DNA of 64,000 nucleotides from Thermococcus indicus (GTDB lineage Archaea > Methanobacteriota_B > Thermococci > Thermococcales > Thermococcaceae): contig NZ_CP040846.1 in assembly GCF_006274605.1 (NCBI RefSeq), forward strand, positions 1,557,041 through 1,621,040. The letters run 5' to 3'. Below are positions 55,387 through 64,000 of the stretch, piece after piece. How positions within the stretch are numbered: the stretch's first letter is position 1; the number at the start of each line of letters is the position of its first letter. Under the pieces are notes generated by a model. It had not been told where the DNA came from. It worked only from the letters and a program-made list of their open reading frames with translations, and made no database searches. The translations under genes were made by a program, and so were the position numbers.

Positions 55387-57288
55387 ATGGAGGCGAAAGG
55401 TGGTTACTGGGGCAGGATTCTGAGGGTCAACCTGACCACCGGGGAGATAAAGGTGGAACCCCTCTCCGAGGAGTTCCCCAGGAAGTACCTCGGAGGCGTC
55501 GGCTTTGGAACCAGACTTCTCTACGACGAAGTTCCGGCCGGAGCTGATCCGCTTGGGCCGGAGAACAAGATGATAATCACACCTGGCCTGTTCGTCGGAA
55601 CCGGCATCGGAACCGGCTCAAAGACAGCCTTCAACTTCAAGAGCCCGCTCACCGGTGCCTATGGCCGCTCGATGGCCGGAGCCAAGATGGGCGAGGAGCT
55701 CAAGAAGGCAGGCTACGACGTCCTTATCATCGAGGGCCAGAGCGAGAAACCTGTTCTCCTCGTTGTAGAGGACGACGAGGTTAAGCTCGTTCCGGCCGAT
55801 GGTTACTGGGGTCTCACGACCGGCGAGGCCAGGAAGAAGGCCAAGGAGGAGTACCCCGGCTTCGCAACGGCCTTTATCGGCCCGGCCGGTGAGAACCTCA
55901 GCAGGATAGCCACGATAGAGACCGACGACAGGCAGGCCGGTAGAGGTGGCCCCGGTGCCGTCCTCGGAAGCAAGAAGCTCAAGGGAATCCTCGTAAAGGG
56001 AACCAAGAAGATACCGATAGCCCAGCCCGAGAAGCTCCGCGAGCTCATCAAGGAGTGGGCGATGGTCTTTAAGGACCACCCGGCCACCAAGGCAGACATG
56101 GAGTACGGAAGCGGCGAGTTCCTCGACTGGATGAACCGCGAGAGGGGAACCTTCCCGGTCAGGAACTGGCAGATGGGCTTCTTCAAGAAGGCCTACGAGA
56201 AGGCCAAGGAGGAGGGCAGGGAGCACATCGGAATCGACCCCTACTTCTGGGCGCCGAAGTACCGCGCCGGCAGGAGGCCGTGCCCGCTCTGTAACAAGCC
56301 GTGCAGCCAGTACATCAAGGTCGAGAGCGAGCGCTGGGGCACCTTCATGACGGATGGACCGGAGTACGAGACCCTCTACTCATTCGGCGGTGTGCTCGAG
56401 CTTGACGACTTCGAGACGGTAGCGTACCTCAACTACCTGGCTGACGAGCTCGGCCTCGACACCATCTCGGCCGGTGTCACCATCGCCTGGGCCATGGAGG
56501 CCTACGAGAGGGGACTGCTCACCAAGGAGGAAGCTGACGGCCTTGAGCTCACCTTCGGAAATGGCGAGGCCGCCGTCGAGGCCCTCAAGAAGATGGCCTA
56601 CCGTGAGGGCAACCTCGGAAAGCTCCTCGCCGACGGTGTCAAGAGGGCCAGCGAGAGGCTCGGCAAGGGCAGCGAGAAGTTCGCCATGCACGTCAAGGGC
56701 ATGGAGCCGCCTGCCTATGACGTCCGCGGTATAAAGGGAATGGCCCTCGCCTTCGCCGTGAACGTCCGCGGTGCCGACCACCTCACCAGCGGCGCCTACG
56801 GAACTGAGCTGGTCGGCAAGTGGTGGAAGTTCGATGGCGTGGACAGAACCAGGGGCGAGAACAAGGGCTTTGAGATTGCCTTCCACGAGAACCTCATGGC
56901 GATCTATGACGCCACCGGCGTCTGTAAGTTCTCAAGGCACATGTACTTCCTCGAGGGCTTCCCGCCGCTCGTCGAGGCCGTTACCGGCATGAACATCGGC
57001 GAGGCCGAGCTGATGGTCATCGGCGAGAGGATAATGAACGTCGCCAGGGCCTTCAACGTCAGGGAAGGCTTCACCAGGAAGGACGACACGCTCCCGTACA
57101 GGATCATGTGGGAGCCGATTCCTGAAGGAGTCAGCAAGGGCTTCCACGTCCCGCCGTGGGAGCTCGACAGGATGCTCGACGAGTACTACCAGGCCCGCGG
57201 CTGGAGCAGGGATGGAATCCCGACCAAGGCCAAGCTCATCGCCCTCGATTTACCGGACATCGCCGAGGACATTGGGGCTGGTATTTGA
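55387..57288 (+). CDS. Tungsten-dependent aldehyde:ferredoxin oxidoreductase family enzyme
   Basis: 633 residues. The N-terminus (GGYWGRILRVNLTTGEIKVEPL) and FIGPAGENLSRIATIETDDRQAGRGGPGAVLGSKKLKGI are typical of the AOR family. The 4Fe-4S ligands are C299, C302, C306 (CPLCNKPC) and C513 (DATGVCKF). The enzyme binds bis-tungstopterin and oxidises aldehydes to acids with ferredoxin. Which paralogue (AOR, FOR, WOR4, WOR5, GAPOR) it is cannot be decided by eye. Confidence 0.9.
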   Translation: MEAKGGYWGRILRVNLTTGEIKVEPLSEEFPRKYLGGVGFGTRLLYDEVPAGADPLGPENKMIITPGLFVGTGIGTGSKTAFNFKSPLTGAYGRSMAGAKMGEELKKAGYDVLIIEGQSEKPVLLVVEDDEVKLVPADGYWGLTTGEARKKAKEEYPGFATAFIGPAGENLSRIATIETDDRQAGRGGPGAVLGSKKLKGILVKGTKKIPIAQPEKLRELIKEWAMVFKDHPATKADMEYGSGEFLDWMNRERGTFPVRNWQMGFFKKAYEKAKEEGREHIGIDPYFWAPKYRAGRRPCPLCNKPCSQYIKVESERWGTFMTDGPEYETLYSFGGVLELDDFETVAYLNYLADELGLDTISAGVTIAWAMEAYERGLLTKEEADGLELTFGNGEAAVEALKKMAYREGNLGKLLADGVKRASERLGKGSEKFAMHVKGMEPPAYDVRGIKGMALAFAVNVRGADHLTSGAYGTELVGKWWKFDGVDRTRGENKGFEIAFHENLMAIYDATGVCKFSRHMYFLEGFPPLVEAVTGMNIGEAELMVIGERIMNVARAFNVREGFTRKDDTLPYRIMWEPIPEGVSKGFHVPPWELDRMLDEYYQARGWSRDGIPTKAKLIALDLPDIAEDIGAGI

Positions 57289-57372
57289 AGGTCCTTACCC
57301 CCTCTTTTCTTTGCTTCTTCCCGGAGTTAAATATAAGAACCTGGGGGGAGTATCCTCCCGTTGGTGTTAATC

Positions 57373-58923
57373 ATGGAGAGGAAGCTCACCGATTTCATCG
57401 GCCATGCCTCCAAGAAGGATAACGGTTTAACCCGTGAGGAGCTTGAGAGGGTTCTTAAGAAGGCCGCGGATTTAATCAGGACGAGAGTTGATTACAAGTA
57501 CATCCTCCTCCTGCTGTTCTTGAAGAGACTGAGCGACGAGTGGGAGAAGGAGTTTGAGGAGTACGTTAGGAAGCTCACCAAGGAAGGCCTGGACAGAAAG
57601 ACCGCCGAAGAGCTTGCCCTCAAAGACAGGGAAGCGTACACGATTAACTATCCACCCGAATACCTCTGGAGGAAGCTCCGCGAGAAGGACATCGAGAGCC
57701 TTCCCCAGAACCTTTCGCAGGCCCTCAAGAAGCTCGCCGAGCTCAACCCCAACCTACGGGGTGTCGTTGACCGCTTTGACTTCATGGAGTTCATGCTCCA
57801 CAGGGACAACGCCGAGATACTCAGGCAGCTCTTCGAGCTCTTCAGCGGGCTTGACTTAAAGAACGCCTCTCCAGATGTCCTTGGCGATGCCTACGAGTGG
57901 ATTCTCCGCTACTTTGCCCCGCAGAAGGCCAAGGAGGGTGAGGTTTACACTCCAAGGGAGGTTATCAGGCTCCTAGTTGAAATCCTTAAGCCGGAGCCGG
58001 GGAATGAGGTTTACGACCCTGCGATGGGTTCCGGCGGCATGCTCATCGGGGCTTATCTCTACGTTAAGGAGCACCGCGGAGCGGATGAGGCTAAAAAGCT
58101 CTTCCTCTACGGCCAGGAGGTCAACCCGACCACCTACGCTTTAGCCGAGATGAACATGATACTCCACGGCATTAAGTCGCCGAAGCTTGCTGTCGGCGAT
58201 ACACTTCTCAGGCCAGCCTTTAAGGAGGAAGAAAGGCTCAAGCGCTTCGATGTGGTTATAGCAAACCCGCCCTGGAACCAGGACGGCTACGGCGAGGCGA
58301 CCCTCAAAAAGGCCGAGTTTACCGAGCGCTTCAAGTACGGCTATCCCCCGAACAATTCGGCAGACTGGGCGTGGATACAGCACATGCTCGCGAGCGCCAA
58401 AGATGATGGAAGGGTCGGCATCGTCATAGACAACGGCGCGCTCTTCAGGGGCGGGGCCGAGAAGAAGATAAGGGCGAAGATACTCAAGGACGACCTACTT
58501 GAGGCGGTAATTCTGCTCCCCGAAAAGCTCTTCTACAACACCGGCGCGCCGGGAGCTATAATGATATTCAACAGGAACAAGCCGGAGGGCAGGAAGGGGA
58601 AAGTCCTCTTCATCAACGCCTCGCAGGAGTATGAAAAGCACCCCGAGATAAGGAAGCTGAACAGACTCGGCGAGGAGCACATCAGAAAAATCGCTGAAGC
58701 CTTCGAGAAGTTCGAGAACGTTGAGGGCTTTGCGCGCGTCGTTGAGCTGGACGAGATAAAGGAGAATGACCACAACCTAAACGTCACCCTCTACGTCTTC
58801 CCGATGGAGGAAGAGGAGGAGATCGACGTTAAGGCCGAGTGGGAGGAGCTGAAGAGGATTAACGAGGAGCTTGCGAGGGTTGATGAGAAGATTGAGGGAT
58901 ATTTGAGGGAGCTGGGGTATTGA
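57373..58923 (+). CDS. hsdM: Type I restriction-modification DNA methyltransferase subunit
   Basis: 516 residues from the ATG at 57373; in-frame TTG/GTG codons lie up to 12 bases earlier. N-terminal HsdM helices (LERVLKKAADLIRTRVDYKYILLLLFLKRLSDEW), then motif I VYDPAMGSGGMLIG and motif IV VVIANPPWNQDG of N6-adenine methyltransferases. With HsdS it methylates the bipartite target. A TATA box (TTAAATATA, about 57327) precedes it. Confidence 0.95.
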   Translation: MERKLTDFIGHASKKDNGLTREELERVLKKAADLIRTRVDYKYILLLLFLKRLSDEWEKEFEEYVRKLTKEGLDRKTAEELALKDREAYTINYPPEYLWRKLREKDIESLPQNLSQALKKLAELNPNLRGVVDRFDFMEFMLHRDNAEILRQLFELFSGLDLKNASPDVLGDAYEWILRYFAPQKAKEGEVYTPREVIRLLVEILKPEPGNEVYDPAMGSGGMLIGAYLYVKEHRGADEAKKLFLYGQEVNPTTYALAEMNMILHGIKSPKLAVGDTLLRPAFKEEERLKRFDVVIANPPWNQDGYGEATLKKAEFTERFKYGYPPNNSADWAWIQHMLASAKDDGRVGIVIDNGALFRGGAEKKIRAKILKDDLLEAVILLPEKLFYNTGAPGAIMIFNRNKPEGRKGKVLFINASQEYEKHPEIRKLNRLGEEHIRKIAEAFEKFENVEGFARVVELDEIKENDHNLNVTLYVFPMEEEEEIDVKAEWEELKRINEELARVDEKIEGYLRELGY

Positions 58924-59313: not shown

Positions 59314-59326
59314 AGGGGATGCTTAA
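59240..59326 (+). CDS. Possible 28-residue single-helix membrane peptide
   Basis: In a second frame over the PIN remnant, a TTG at 59240 opens a reading with the hydrophobic run LFVIVELIVGLIVLGVIIL and a charged end (RGDA). Its stop shares bases with the hsdS start (TAATG). GAGAGG lies about ten bases upstream. It could be a real small membrane protein or a chance reading. Confidence 0.3.
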   Translation: MSGLFVIVELIVGLIVLGVIILIIRGDA

Positions 59327-60600
59327 TGGCAGGACTCAAGAAAACTCCAATCGGCGAGATTCCCGAGGATTGGGAGGTTGTAGAGCTTGAGGAGATTGCG
59401 GAGAGGTTCGTCGGCGGAGGAACGCCATCAACAAAGAAACCAGAATACTGGAATGGTGACATTCCATGGATCACAAGTGCCATAATTTCTGGATACTACA
59501 TAACTGATGGGGAAAAATATATCACTGAGAAAGGTCTCAACAACAGCTCCACTAATATCGTTCCAAAGGGCAATATAGTAGTAGCCACCCGAGTGGGACT
59601 TGGAAAGGCAGCGATAACTAAAATTGACGTGGCAATAAATCAAGATTTAACCGGTGTAATTTTGAAAAAGGAGCTTGTAGATCCTGAATATCTCGTTAGG
59701 TATGTCACTTCTCCGTTTGTTGTTAAATTTATTCTCTCGGCGGCTAGGGGAACAACTATAAAGGGGATCTCTCGAAAAGAGCTTGCAAAACTAAAAATCC
59801 CCCTCCCACCCCTCCCCGAGCAGAAGAAAATCGCTGAAATCCTGCGTACCGTTGATGAGGACATCGAGAAGACCGACGAGGCCATCGAGCGGACGGAGCG
59901 TCTAAAGAAGGGCCTCATGCAGAGGCTTTTGACCAAGGGGATCAAGCACGAGCGGTTCAAGAAGACGGAGCTGGGCGAGATTCCGGAGGAGTGGCGGGTT
60001 GTAAGGTTGGAAGAGATTTCAAATATTTATTATGGTCTCTCACAGCCTCTTCCAGAGTTAGAATCAGGAGTCCCCATGATACGTGCTACAAATATAAGAG
60101 CAGGTAAGGTTTATCGGGAAGGGTTGATAAAGGTTGATATTTCGGAGCTTCCTGCTAATAAGAGGCATGTAATACTCCAAGAAGGAGACATTATAGTCGT
60201 CAGGAGTGGAGCGTACACCGGAGACATTGGTATAATCTCTAGAGAATTCGAGGGTTCAATTGCAGGCTACGACCTAATTGTCAGACTTAATCACGAAAAA
60301 GCTTACCCCGAATATACCACATATTACCTCCTCTCTCCACATGTTCAGTCCTATTTTACTACACTCAGGACTAGATCCGCACAACCTCATTTGAACTCAA
60401 AGCAACTGAAGAATACAAAAATCCCCCTCCCACCCCTCTCCGAACAAAAACAAATCGCCGAAATCCTTTCCACTGTCGATAGAAAGCTCGAACTCCTGAG
60501 GAAGCGCAGGGAGAAGCTTGAGAAGGTCAAGAAGGGCCTGATGAAAGATTTGCTGACGGGAAGGAGGAGGGTGAAACATTACGGTGACCAAAAAATTTAA
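59326..60600 (+). CDS. hsdS: Type I restriction-modification specificity subunit
   Basis: 424 residues in two similar halves. TRD1 starts TPIGEIPEDWEVVELEEIAE and TRD2 starts TELGEIPEEWRVVRLEEISN. Each ends in the conserved PLPPLPEQKKIAEIL / PLPPLSEQKQIAEIL followed by a coiled-coil spacer (LRTVDEDIEKTDEAIERTERLKKGLM). The central TRD coding is more AT-rich than hsdM, as expected for exchanged recognition domains. Both domains look intact, so the subunit should read a bipartite site. Confidence 0.95.
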   Translation: MAGLKKTPIGEIPEDWEVVELEEIAERFVGGGTPSTKKPEYWNGDIPWITSAIISGYYITDGEKYITEKGLNNSSTNIVPKGNIVVATRVGLGKAAITKIDVAINQDLTGVILKKELVDPEYLVRYVTSPFVVKFILSAARGTTIKGISRKELAKLKIPLPPLPEQKKIAEILRTVDEDIEKTDEAIERTERLKKGLMQRLLTKGIKHERFKKTELGEIPEEWRVVRLEEISNIYYGLSQPLPELESGVPMIRATNIRAGKVYREGLIKVDISELPANKRHVILQEGDIIVVRSGAYTGDIGIISREFEGSIAGYDLIVRLNHEKAYPEYTTYYLLSPHVQSYFTTLRTRSAQPHLNSKQLKNTKIPLPPLSEQKQIAEILSTVDRKLELLRKRREKLEKVKKGLMKDLLTGRRRVKHYGDQKI

Positions 60601-60892: not shown

Positions 60893-62095
60893 ATGTCAAA
60901 TAATAGCATCTGGAATTCTTGGATTGAGCTCACAAAAAATGGTGCTCTCCCACTAGTTGCACTTACTTATTTGTTAGCAGTCTGGAAAATAAGTGAAACT
61001 TGCACCACTAACAAATGTTTTATAGAGTCTTTCGTAATCGTTTCAATTGTTATCATGCTCTTGTTGTATCCGATGCTCAGATATGCTAGGACCGTTTTAG
61101 GTCTCAAGATCAAGGTGGAAAAAGAACAAGTAAAGAAATCCACACTGAAAATTATTGACAAGCATTTTTCTCCACGAATTAGAGCATTTTTTGGAGTTCT
61201 AGAGCGCAGAGGAGTCATGAATTTAGAAAAGCTGGAAAATGATATTTTCAAAAATCTCTCTTTGGCATTTATTATGTTAGAACGAGGGGAAGCTCTTGAT
61301 GGTCATTTGAAATATCGCATTAGTAACGTTCTTGAAGGAAAGGCACCTAATGAATACAGAAGGATACCTAGCCTCTCAACTCTATTTAGACATTTTATGT
61401 TGAATGAAGTAGTAACATGGCAAGAAGTGGATAATGTCATCCCCATAAAGATTAGGCAGGGTTTTTCTATATTTCTTGTTATACCATCAAAACATGCCCC
61501 CCATCTTGGAGATCTTATTATAGGCGGGTATAGGAATTATGTTAGGAATATCTATGATAAGATACAAAATAACCCTGACATCTCAGAGGAGGATAAGCAG
61601 AAATTTCGTGAATGGTACAGCAAGTTTAACCCTCCTATAAATCCGGCCATCTTGGTTTTGTTCCCTTATCAAACATCTATTGAGGTCATACTTGAATATC
61701 TTTCTGAAGGTAGCTCTGAGGACATTAAACTAGTTTTTGCTCCTAAGATTGAGACCATTTTAAAACAAACGCTAGATGTTGGCAGGATTAAGCTCGCTTA
61801 TTTATTTGAAACAGTTGGATATGCTGATAAAATTGTCAACAGGTTGATAGAGTTAGACAGAGATATCAAGGTAAAGATCAACGGAAACCCTGAATTAACT
61901 CTAAATGATTTCCTAGCTCTTTCTCAGCCATATAAACATCTAATGAGGGCAATAAAGTTAGTTGATCCTTCTCTATTCAATGAGGTTGTTCAATATGAGG
62001 GGTATCTAGGGGAACTTAGAAATCTCATTAGAGATTTAGAAATTACAGTTCATGGAAAGACATTAACTCCTGATAATACCACCATAACACGCTAG
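60893..62095 (+). CDS. AT-rich membrane-anchored protein of unknown function
   Basis: 400 residues. Two hydrophobic helices near the start (ALPLVALTYLLAVW, about 18-31; FIESFVIVSIVIMLLLYPML, about 43-62), then a mostly helical soluble part with no motif I recognise. The DNA is clearly more AT-rich than its neighbours, with many ATA and TTA codons, so it is probably a recent acquisition. It sits within the type I RM locus directly after the tRNA-like element. It could be a defence accessory gene. Confidence 0.65.
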   Translation: MSNNSIWNSWIELTKNGALPLVALTYLLAVWKISETCTTNKCFIESFVIVSIVIMLLLYPMLRYARTVLGLKIKVEKEQVKKSTLKIIDKHFSPRIRAFFGVLERRGVMNLEKLENDIFKNLSLAFIMLERGEALDGHLKYRISNVLEGKAPNEYRRIPSLSTLFRHFMLNEVVTWQEVDNVIPIKIRQGFSIFLVIPSKHAPHLGDLIIGGYRNYVRNIYDKIQNNPDISEEDKQKFREWYSKFNPPINPAILVLFPYQTSIEVILEYLSEGSSEDIKLVFAPKIETILKQTLDVGRIKLAYLFETVGYADKIVNRLIELDRDIKVKINGNPELTLNDFLALSQPYKHLMRAIKLVDPSLFNEVVQYEGYLGELRNLIRDLEITVHGKTLTPDNTTITR

Positions 62096-62157: not shown

Positions 62158-62249
62158 GTTAATCTCTTAACATCCCTTCGTTATTTTGTCTCTTTTGTTA
62201 ATACATTAACCACAACTCTTTTATATGGCTTTAATGTTAACCCATTAAC
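62158..62249 (+). promoter_or_regulatory. Promoter with three GTTAA-N4-TTAAC palindromes spaced exactly 39 bp
   Basis: Copies at 62158-62171 (N4 = TCTC), 62197-62210 (TACA) and 62236-62249 (CCCA). Arms are identical in all three, and starts are 39 bp apart. A TATA box (TTTTATATGG, 62218-62227) lies between copies 2 and 3, so copy 3 covers the expected transcription start of the nucleotidyltransferase-hsdR pair. The pattern fits a repressor that binds cooperatively or loops DNA. The regulator is not evident in the window. Confidence 0.7.
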
Positions 62250-62298
62250 ATGATAGTATGGGTAGCAGTCGACGACCGCATTTTGGTGGCGATTAGAA

Positions 62299-62907
62299 AT
62301 GATGTCATCAGACTTAAAGAAAAAATTGAGTGAGCTTGCTAAGGATTTCAAGGAGAAAAATCCGAACGTTTGGGATATCCTTCTCTACGGTTCCATAGTT
62401 AAGGGAAAAGAAGCCCCCAACGACATAGACATTGCCGTAATTTTGACCGAGGGGGATCCGTTCGAAGTGGCGTTCCACTTTAAGAGGGTGCTAGAAGAGA
62501 GGGGCTTCTCTCCTGAAGAGCTGGACGTCAAAGGCTTCCTGATGGGCGAACTTTTCAGCGAGAACAACCTGATAAGTTTTGCACTGCTCGTTGAAGGTTA
62601 TTCCCTGACAAAAAACGAATTCCTCCATAAGGCTCTCAACGCCAAAGGATACACCCTCTTTAAGTTCTCATACTCTGGTCTTACTGGCAGCGAAAAGGTG
62701 AGGTTCATATATAGCCTGAGGGGGAGAAGGGGAGGTGAGGGGATACTCAAAAAGCTCAATGCCGTGGAGCTTGCCGCAGGGGTAGTTTTGGTGCCGGTGC
62801 ATGCGACGTTTGAATTCAGGGAATTTCTGTCGCTCTGGGGACTGAGTTACGAGTACGCACCGATATTAGTCGGAGAGTTCTCCCGGGAGGTGCCTTCCCT
62901 TGAATGA
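62299..62907 (+). CDS. Minimal nucleotidyltransferase (MNT-like) protein
   Basis: 202 residues with GGTGG upstream. The nucleotidyltransferase core is LLYGSIVKGKEAPNDIDIAVILTEG (G-S ... D-x-D). The C-terminal ~90 residues are a separate helical domain (GSEKVRFIYSLRGRRGGEGILKKLNAVELAAGVVLVPV). MNT proteins often serve as antitoxins that modify HEPN toxins by adding AMP; no HEPN gene is adjacent. Its last bases overlap the hsdR start, so translation of the two is coupled. Confidence 0.8.
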   Translation: MMSSDLKKKLSELAKDFKEKNPNVWDILLYGSIVKGKEAPNDIDIAVILTEGDPFEVAFHFKRVLEERGFSPEELDVKGFLMGELFSENNLISFALLVEGYSLTKNEFLHKALNAKGYTLFKFSYSGLTGSEKVRFIYSLRGRRGGEGILKKLNAVELAAGVVLVPVHATFEFREFLSLWGLSYEYAPILVGEFSREVPSLE

Positions 62908-64000
62908 AACCCCCGAATACCTCCAGTGCGAGAAGCCCATCATCGAGCGGCTGGAATCGAAGGGCTGGACTTACAGGAGGGGCATTGAGGTTCTCGAAAA
63001 CGAAAACGAGCCCCTCTTAATCTCAAGGTTAAAGGATGCAATAATGAGGATAAACGGAGTTGGCGAGAGGGAAGCGGAGGAGGCAATCAACCTCCTTGAG
63101 GCTGCTCATTTTGGCGTTGAAGGGTCGAGAAGGGTTCTCGACTACCTCAAGAACGGCGTTCCCGTGAAGGATGAAGAAACCGCTCAACCGAAGAGGCTGA
63201 TGCTCATTGACTATGAAAACCTCGGAAACAACGAGTTCCTCGTTGCCAACCAGGTCGGCTACCCGTTTAAGACCAAGATACCCGACCTAGTCCTCTACGT
63301 CAACGGCATCCCGCTGGTCATCATCGAGTGCAAAAAGCTCGATGTGAGCTGGAAAAAGGCCTACGAGCAGATTAAAAGCTATGAGAAGGAGATGCCCGAG
63401 CTCTTTAAGTACGTGCAGATCGGCGTTGCGGTTGGAGATAAACCCGTCTATTTCCCCATAGTGCCGTGGCTCGGGAGCGTCCCGGTCTACGAATGGAAGG
63501 GCGAGAGCTTTGATGAGCTGGACAACCTGGTTGAGCTTTTAAAACCTGGGACTCTCCTTGACGTCCTCCGCTACTTCACCTTTTACCGTGAGAGCGGTGG
63601 GGCTTTTACAAAGGTTCTGCCGAGGTACATGCAGTACCGGGCGGTTAGAGAGATAGTGAGCATCGCTCTGGCCTACGCGAGGGGAGAAACCGAAAGAAAC
63701 AGGGGCTTAATATGGCACTGGCAGGGAAGCGGAAAAACCTTGACCATGATATTCTCCGCCTATAAAATCAAGCGCCTGCTCGGCAACCCCACGATTTTCT
63801 TCGTCGTTGACAGGAAGGAACTTGAGAGACAGCTGAGCGGCGAGCTTAAAGCCGTGGGGCTGAGCTTTGAAGTTATAGATTCAATTGAGAAGCTCAGGGA
63901 AGTCCTAACCCACGCCGATGGAAAGAGGGGAACGTTCATCACGCTCATCCACAAGTTCCGCGCCGAGGACCTCAATGACGTGCTGGAGGGCCTCAAGAGG
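62900..64000 (+). CDS. hsdR: Type I restriction endonuclease subunit (3' end outside window)
   Basis: The frame starts at a TTG (62900) inside the previous gene's end, with GGGAGGTG seven bases upstream, and is open to the window end (367 codons). It opens NETPEYLQCEKPIIERLESKGW. The nuclease motif is KIPDLVLYVNGIPLVIIECKK (D ... ExK), followed by Walker A IWHWQGSGKTLTMIFSAYK and FFVVDRKELERQL of the translocase. It completes the RM system with hsdM and hsdS. The remaining helicase domains lie beyond base 64000. Confidence 0.93.
   Translation, partial: MNETPEYLQCEKPIIERLESKGWTYRRGIEVLENENEPLLISRLKDAIMRINGVGEREAEEAINLLEAAHFGVEGSRRVLDYLKNGVPVKDEETAQPKRLMLIDYENLGNNEFLVANQVGYPFKTKIPDLVLYVNGIPLVIIECKKLDVSWKKAYEQIKSYEKEMPELFKYVQIGVAVGDKPVYFPIVPWLGSVPVYEWKGESFDELDNLVELLKPGTLLDVLRYFTFYRESGGAFTKVLPRYMQYRAVREIVSIALAYARGETERNRGLIWHWQGSGKTLTMIFSAYKIKRLLGNPTIFFVVDRKELERQLSGELKAVGLSFEVIDSIEKLREVLTHADGKRGTFITLIHKFRAEDLNDVLEGLKR

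Follow-up and report, generated by a model that had tools for sequence, protein, structure and literature searches.

A palindrome array of fixed 39-bp pitch as candidate operator of a HEPN-MNT module nested in a type I restriction locus of Thermococcus

HEPN-MNT modules have been described as the most abundant type of prokaryotic toxin-antitoxin system (PMC7641770). As to their transcriptional control, a DNA-binding domain is missing from most MNTs, and in 2009 a component acting in trans was put forward (PMC2701414). In Shewanella, the MNT antitoxin SO_3165 is reported to bind its own promoter, where two palindromes lie, and to repress it weakly, 1.6-fold (PMC4621449). In type II restriction systems, controller (C) proteins of the C.Csp231I/C.EcoO109I type, which are small helix-turn-helix (HTH) proteins, act at palindromic operators whose arms are 5 bp long and whose long spacer is of fixed length, in front of an operon where the regulator gene precedes the restriction gene; the C.Csp231I operator (CTAAG-N5-CTTAG) has an 18-bp spacer and that of C.EcoO109I a 25-bp spacer, and it is spacer length that matters, not spacer sequence (PMC4321490).

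Little transcriptional regulation is known for type I restriction. The PrrC gene lies between hsdS and hsdR, and we know of no operator array described for it. PrrC itself, encoded in the type I locus EcoprrI, is an anticodon nuclease of ABC-HEPN type, and it is the restriction complex that holds it, not an MNT partner (PMC3710099). The hsdR gene of EcoKI is transcribed apart from hsdMS, without operator array or dedicated regulator, and the delay of restriction is mainly a matter of proteolysis, under ClpXP control (PMC12707154). In archaea, the Lrp-type regulator Ah-BarR, encoded next to its sites, has three of them regularly spaced upstream of its target; they are 15-bp semipalindromes with spacings of 17 and 27-29 bp (PMC10201364).

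The locus compared here with these systems lies in the last part of the window, that is, the whole stretch of 64,000 nucleotides of Thermococcus indicus DNA that was analysed (Table 1). As the sequence-only reading had described, the palindrome GTTAA-N4-TTAAC occurs three times at a pitch of 39 bp, both spacers being exactly 25 bp long, and a TATA box lies between copies 2 and 3. Every intact HEPN-MNT promoter of family I has its TATA box at this position; given archaeal TATA-to-start spacing, transcription presumably starts at about 62249-62251. The genes downstream had been taken for an MNT-hsdR pair. The array does precede MNT and then hsdR, but the pair is, by alignment with four intact copies, HEPN-MNT-hsdR minus HEPN, a derivative left by a 257-bp deletion (junction after 62265) that took most of the HEPN gene. 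What remains of that gene loses its frame after 12 codons; this short frame (62258-62296) ends just before the MNT start.

Table 1. Coordinates of the restriction genes, the palindrome array and its promoter in the window
Feature	Position	Strand	Description
hsdM	57361..58923	+	own TATA-like TTAAATATAAG in the 72-bp gap upstream; no array
hsdS	59326..60600	+	two dissimilar target-recognition domains (26% identity)
400-aa ORF	60893..62095	+	between hsdS and array; no Pfam match
Palindrome copy 1	62158..62171	none	GTTAATCTCTTAAC
Palindrome copy 2	62197..62210	none	GTTAATACATTAAC; just upstream of TATA box
TATA box	62220..62227	+	TTTATATG; between copies 2 and 3
Palindrome copy 3	62236..62249	none	GTTAACCCATTAAC; between TATA box and expected transcription start
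HEPN gene remnant	62258..62333	+	start codon and last 21 codons, joined by the 257-bp deletion
MNT gene	62299..62907	+	202 aa; minimal nucleotidyltransferase domain (GSX10DXD) plus uncharacterised ferredoxin-like C-terminal domain
hsdR	62900..64000	+	TTG start, overlaps MNT stop; 982 aa, runs past window end

The MNT carries its GSX10DXD motif as GSIVKGKEAPNDID (residues 31-44), matches Pfam Polbeta/NTP_transf_2 above cutoff and NCBIfam MntA below cutoff only, and matches the MNT antitoxins 7ae9 and 8xeo in structure. All type I restriction-modification components are present (Pfam N6_Mtase, Methylase_S and HSDR_N above cutoff), and HsdR is intact. A search with the window MNT led to a relative (G036) in which the three palindromes recur at identical pitch and an intact gene of 110 aa comes next, then MNT and hsdR; the HEPN deleted in the window stands intact beside MNT in this genome and in G013, G031, G023, G075 and G117. 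The 110-aa gene product resembles HEPN proteins; PF05168 matches are weak and below cutoff in a distant family (E 0.0025-0.007), the window's own family giving none. The RX4HXY motif of HEPN-MNT class I (HepT) is absent from the HEPN alignment; the HEPN of window-type modules resembles class II, for which toxicity is not established (PMC7641770).

Like the Shewanella SO_3166-SO_3165 (HepT/MntA) module (PMC4621449, PMC7641770), these loci have a GSX10DXD MNT beside a HEPN and palindromes in the promoter. Unlike it, they have HEPN in front of MNT, an extra C-terminal domain in MNT, a HEPN lacking RX4HXY, and three matching palindromes at rigid pitch in place of two dissimilar ones; hsdR is appended, and HEPN is deleted in the window. 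With C.Csp231I and C.EcoO109I the array shares the 5-bp palindromic arms, the long fixed spacer and the place before a regulator and a restriction gene, the candidate MNT likewise preceding hsdR. It differs in having three copies, an archaeal promoter and a type I enzyme, and the operon holds no HTH gene, its candidate being a nucleotidyltransferase-type antitoxin. As with PrrC, a HEPN gene is nested in a type I locus beside the restriction subunit; as in EcoKI, hsdR is transcribed apart from hsdMS; as with Ah-BarR, three regularly spaced sites lie upstream of the target, but no regulator gene, Lrp-type ones included, adjoins the array in the contexts examined. Autoregulated toxin-antitoxin promoters and controller-protein operators are already known kinds. 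In the open-access literature searched we met neither a rigid array with matched site dialects, nor the MNT C-terminal domain, nor the link to hsdR.

The window contains 79 palindromes of the form 5-N4-5, and the only identical-arm pairs at 20-80 bp pitch are those of the array (39, 39 and 78 bp). By chance, 0.03 occurrences of GTTAA-N4-TTAAC are expected in the window, and three were reached in 0 of 100 shuffles. The whole genome (2.23 Mb) has five such sites, the three array copies and two singletons, one within a transposon-type (TnpB-like) ORF and one adjoining a small membrane-protein ORF. Pairs are confined to the array; the sequence-only reading had named a motif frequent elsewhere at the same spacing as its refutation, and this check did not refute it. 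A genome-wide regulon of exact sites was rejected, the two singletons being near chance expectation.

We scanned 115 genomes of the phylum for GTTWA-N4-TWAAC pairs with gaps of 15-40 bp allowed. The scan gave 32 pairs in 24 genomes, all Thermococcaceae, of which 31 had exactly 25 bp between copies; the reversed pattern gave 0 pairs in the same 115 genomes. The lone exception, in G012, adjoins an MNT remnant and is evidently a decayed scar. HEPN-MNT modules that are distant, at 40-48% identity, carry a different palindrome, GTTATCATGATAAC or GTAGGAATTCCTAC, which is still 14 bp long and at 39-bp pitch. Each of the 20 HEPN-MNT promoters that were examined shows 14-bp palindromes at precisely this pitch, and between the final two copies an AT-rich element that resembles a TATA box; four palindrome sequences occur among them. 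Arrays of GTTATCATGATAAC are present in 21 genomes. Eleven of their contexts were inspected: at six, HEPN and MNT are both present and intact or nearly so; G073 has part of a HEPN ORF; in G029, G031 and G081 the array stands without a module, at or near the gene by which the module is flanked in G017; and in G072 it lies upstream of a DNA methylase gene. A viral collection yielded two matches, both within coding sequence and likely due to chance.

Arrays of the GTTWA type stand in several contexts. Three copies precede HEPN-MNT, with or without hsdR, in G000, G036, G013, G031, G023, G075 and G117. Two copies stand directly before hsdR at nine loci (G005, G016, G023, G025, G027, G078, G079, G081 and G086), with a common AGGTG ribosome-site junction after copy 2, and two copies precede an AF2212-type/PIN pair and then hsdR in G108 and G110. 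In genus g12 (L088-L090, L104), two GTTAA-type copies lie between a divergent ABC-transporter gene and a small MNT gene, not intact in some, or its remnant. Gene-less scars with the array were found in G007, G012, G014, G022 and G082. Among 17 close orthologues of hsdR, 14 have the array upstream. It adjoins the gene directly in nine, is separated from it by HEPN-MNT or MNT in three (G000, G013, G036) and by AF2212-PIN in two; G020 and G063 have no array and G107 has a degenerate trace only. The suggestion that hsdR is controlled separately from hsdM holds up in these data, hsdM having its own TATA-like sequence and no array nearby while many relatives have the array directly before hsdR. The AF2212-type antitoxin and PIN toxin genes (L092:4519-5308 in G108; L093:4617-5406 in G110) fill the slot between array and hsdR that is occupied elsewhere by HEPN-MNT; these are different toxin-antitoxin modules swapped at one position of a type I locus.

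The palindrome type is uniform in nearly every array. On the EF-2 species tree, the distribution of GTTAA and GTTTA takes 8 changes, against a mean of 8.2 for shuffled labels, and a core-genome regulator following the species phylogeny is not supported. On the MNT tree, the four types take 3 changes, the minimum, and none of 200 shuffles was as low; the HEPN tree takes 5. Alignment columns that separate GTTAA from GTTTA loci number 0 in HEPN, 6 in the MNT N-terminal domain and 17 in the C-terminal domain, a contrast between 4 and 3 MNT sequences. HsdR has 3 such columns in 982, HsdM 2 and YgjP 0, and with almost no covarying columns these three were dismissed as setting the dialect. Linkage alone is insufficient to explain the covariation of MNT, because HEPN sits between the array and MNT and yet has no separating column. 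Site type tracks MNT and not the species tree, HEPN, HsdR, HsdM or HsdS; therefore MNT is the best candidate reader, and Shewanella SO_3165 offers a precedent for it (PMC4621449). The dedicated regulator proposed earlier gains from the rigid pitch, the empty control and arms conserved above spacers; what had not been foreseen is the HEPN-MNT module, with MNT itself as the candidate.

Several of the separating MNT residues are hydrophobic, and these may be structural. The model of the C-terminal domain has a ferredoxin-like fold (mean pLDDT 83), for which neither sequence nor fold comparison gave confident relatives among solved structures, DNA-binding ones included. DNA binding by this domain therefore rests on the covariation and is unsupported by the fold. 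MNT, its C-domain model, the HEPN proteins of relatives and the 400-aa ORF all showed no HTH family or domain; the last was discarded as a regulator, unrelated ORFs occupying its slot in other loci.

On balance we favour, with moderate confidence, an array that would serve as the autoregulatory operator of a Thermococcaceae HEPN-MNT module nested between hsdS and hsdR, be read by MNT (or by the HEPN-MNT complex) and set hsdR apart from hsdM-hsdS. Arrays without the module count against this. Local HEPN-MNT is absent at the nine hsdR and the two AF2212-PIN-hsdR loci with two copies, and four of the genomes with two-copy hsdR arrays (G005, G078, G081, G086) have no MNT C-domain protein at E<=0.1. 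In hsdR-only arrays, mismatches are rarer in the arms than in the spacers, at 2/120 vs 26/150 for the T type (p=1e-5) and 2/60 vs 14/75 for the A type (p=0.007), and the type has switched at a homologous locus with similar spacer. Given such conserved arrays in MNT-less genomes, a second or trans-acting reader somewhere is likely: either the arrays there have another reader, perhaps one that acts everywhere, or they are recent relics. One possibility, unlikely though to be taken seriously, is that all the arrays are read by some other DNA-binding protein whose gene lies in trans and which varies horizontally or comes in several paralogues of differing specificity, MNT and HEPN being just its target genes. 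The missing modules, the four genomes without an MNT C-domain protein, the selection on the arms of these arrays and the lack of a visible HTH domain in MNT or its C-domain model would fit such a regulator, as would the DNA-binding component acting in trans that Makarova et al. (2009) suggested for MNT-HEPN (PMC2701414). It would, however, need at least four specificities that match the MNT tree exactly but not the species tree, and no autoregulated regulator gene carrying an array was found among the contexts inspected.

We give distinctly less credence to a mixed scheme in which MNT reads the HEPN-MNT arrays, acts in trans on hsdR-only ones, and has left recent relics of a come-and-go module in MNT-less genomes. 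Turnover of HEPN-MNT is fast, with two-palindrome scars lacking the module in G007, G012, G014, G022, G082, G029 and G031, and in G023 an MNT and an hsdR-only array, both of T type, occupy separate loci; yet in G023, the sole genome with both, the hsdR-only array is the most degenerate (2 mismatches), whereas MNT-less genomes have perfect ones. Since the palindromes precede hsdR in a type I locus, they might instead be recognition sites of the cognate enzyme, with promoter methylation controlling hsdR. Comparison of the HsdS domains largely refutes this and makes it very improbable: the two recognition domains are dissimilar (26%), and near-identical domains go with opposite palindrome types (G036/G079, 88%; G013/G108, 75%). 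Arrays also stand at HEPN-MNT modules without any hsd genes. Least credible of all is chance, or the end of a mobile element in place of an operator. Two copies are indeed kept in empty scars, but the exact pitch of 31 of the 32 pairs, the reversed control, the fixed TATA placement and the occurrence of four sequences with one geometry refute a chance origin.

For the autoregulatory operator, what we observe is the sequence, the geometry, the conservation, the covariation with MNT and the deletion; we infer binding by MNT, its oligomerisation, the sign of control and the effect on hsdR levels. With HEPN gone, the window promoter would drive only MNT and the overlapping hsdR. MNT would bind the copies; its C-terminal domain would probably make the contact, and MNT would probably form an oligomer that holds the palindromes at the fixed pitch; by analogy with C.Csp231I and C.EcoO109I (PMC4321490), binding over 39 bp could be cooperative. 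A filled copy 3, within the TATA-to-start interval, would block transcription, while copies 1 and 2, upstream of the TATA box, might add cooperativity or stabilisation, or else activate. Because MNT and hsdR overlap, hsdR would follow MNT and so come under an antitoxin-type protein, independently of hsdM-hsdS. The toxin gene being lost in the window, the antitoxin or another partner now probably governs the restriction enzyme only. Methylation ahead of restriction after transfer is possible; such a delay would need activation by copies 1 and 2, and simple autorepression would predict the opposite, an early, derepressed hsdR on entry. More tentatively, and with rather less confidence than in the operator itself, we propose that the MNT C-terminal domain may be a new type of sequence-specific DNA-binding domain, with a rigid 39-bp pitch and at least four dialects, and that the toxin-less antitoxin of the window may have been recruited as transcriptional controller of the type I restriction subunit.

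Dozens of relatives repeat this exact 39-base layout, with no fewer than four site sequences among them. Some forty promoters share one fixed geometry and four matched site sequences, and with them comes a domain whose residues change with the site; the question of HEPN-MNT control therefore becomes directly testable by specificity swaps. The array would also tie a toxin-antitoxin operator to the control of type I restriction.

The restriction locus (window 55387-57288 onward; L060, L061, L096, L103) lies in a hotspot that has a tungsten-oxidoreductase-type (AOR) gene on one side and a cluster of tRNA, ribosomal protein S10 and EF-1 alpha genes on the other; in other species this hotspot holds palindrome scars only, or HEPN-MNT alone. 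In almost every one of these loci, the gene after hsdR encodes a YgjP-like metallopeptidase (L006:6829-7542 and orthologues; L091:4612-5058), and an EVE-domain gene is found in some. In G036, a MazE/AbrB-type domain protein, considered as a possible regulator, is encoded just upstream of hsdM (L044:4618-4935). On a contig of Thermococcus sp. JdFR-02 (G117, L094), the three-copy array and HEPN-MNT are followed by genes for a PLD-domain/helicase protein, an 85-aa protein and an SMC-like ATPase, likely a different defence operon led by HEPN-MNT. The hsdR of G027 (L099:8110-11069) is in two frames, its first part 82% similar to that of the window and the rest 96%, which suggests a frameshift together with recombination. 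The DNA methylase gene of G072 is preceded, at a distance of about 90 bp, by two perfect GTTATCATGATAAC copies with the 39-bp pitch (L197:1501-1553), although this genome has no MNT C-domain protein.
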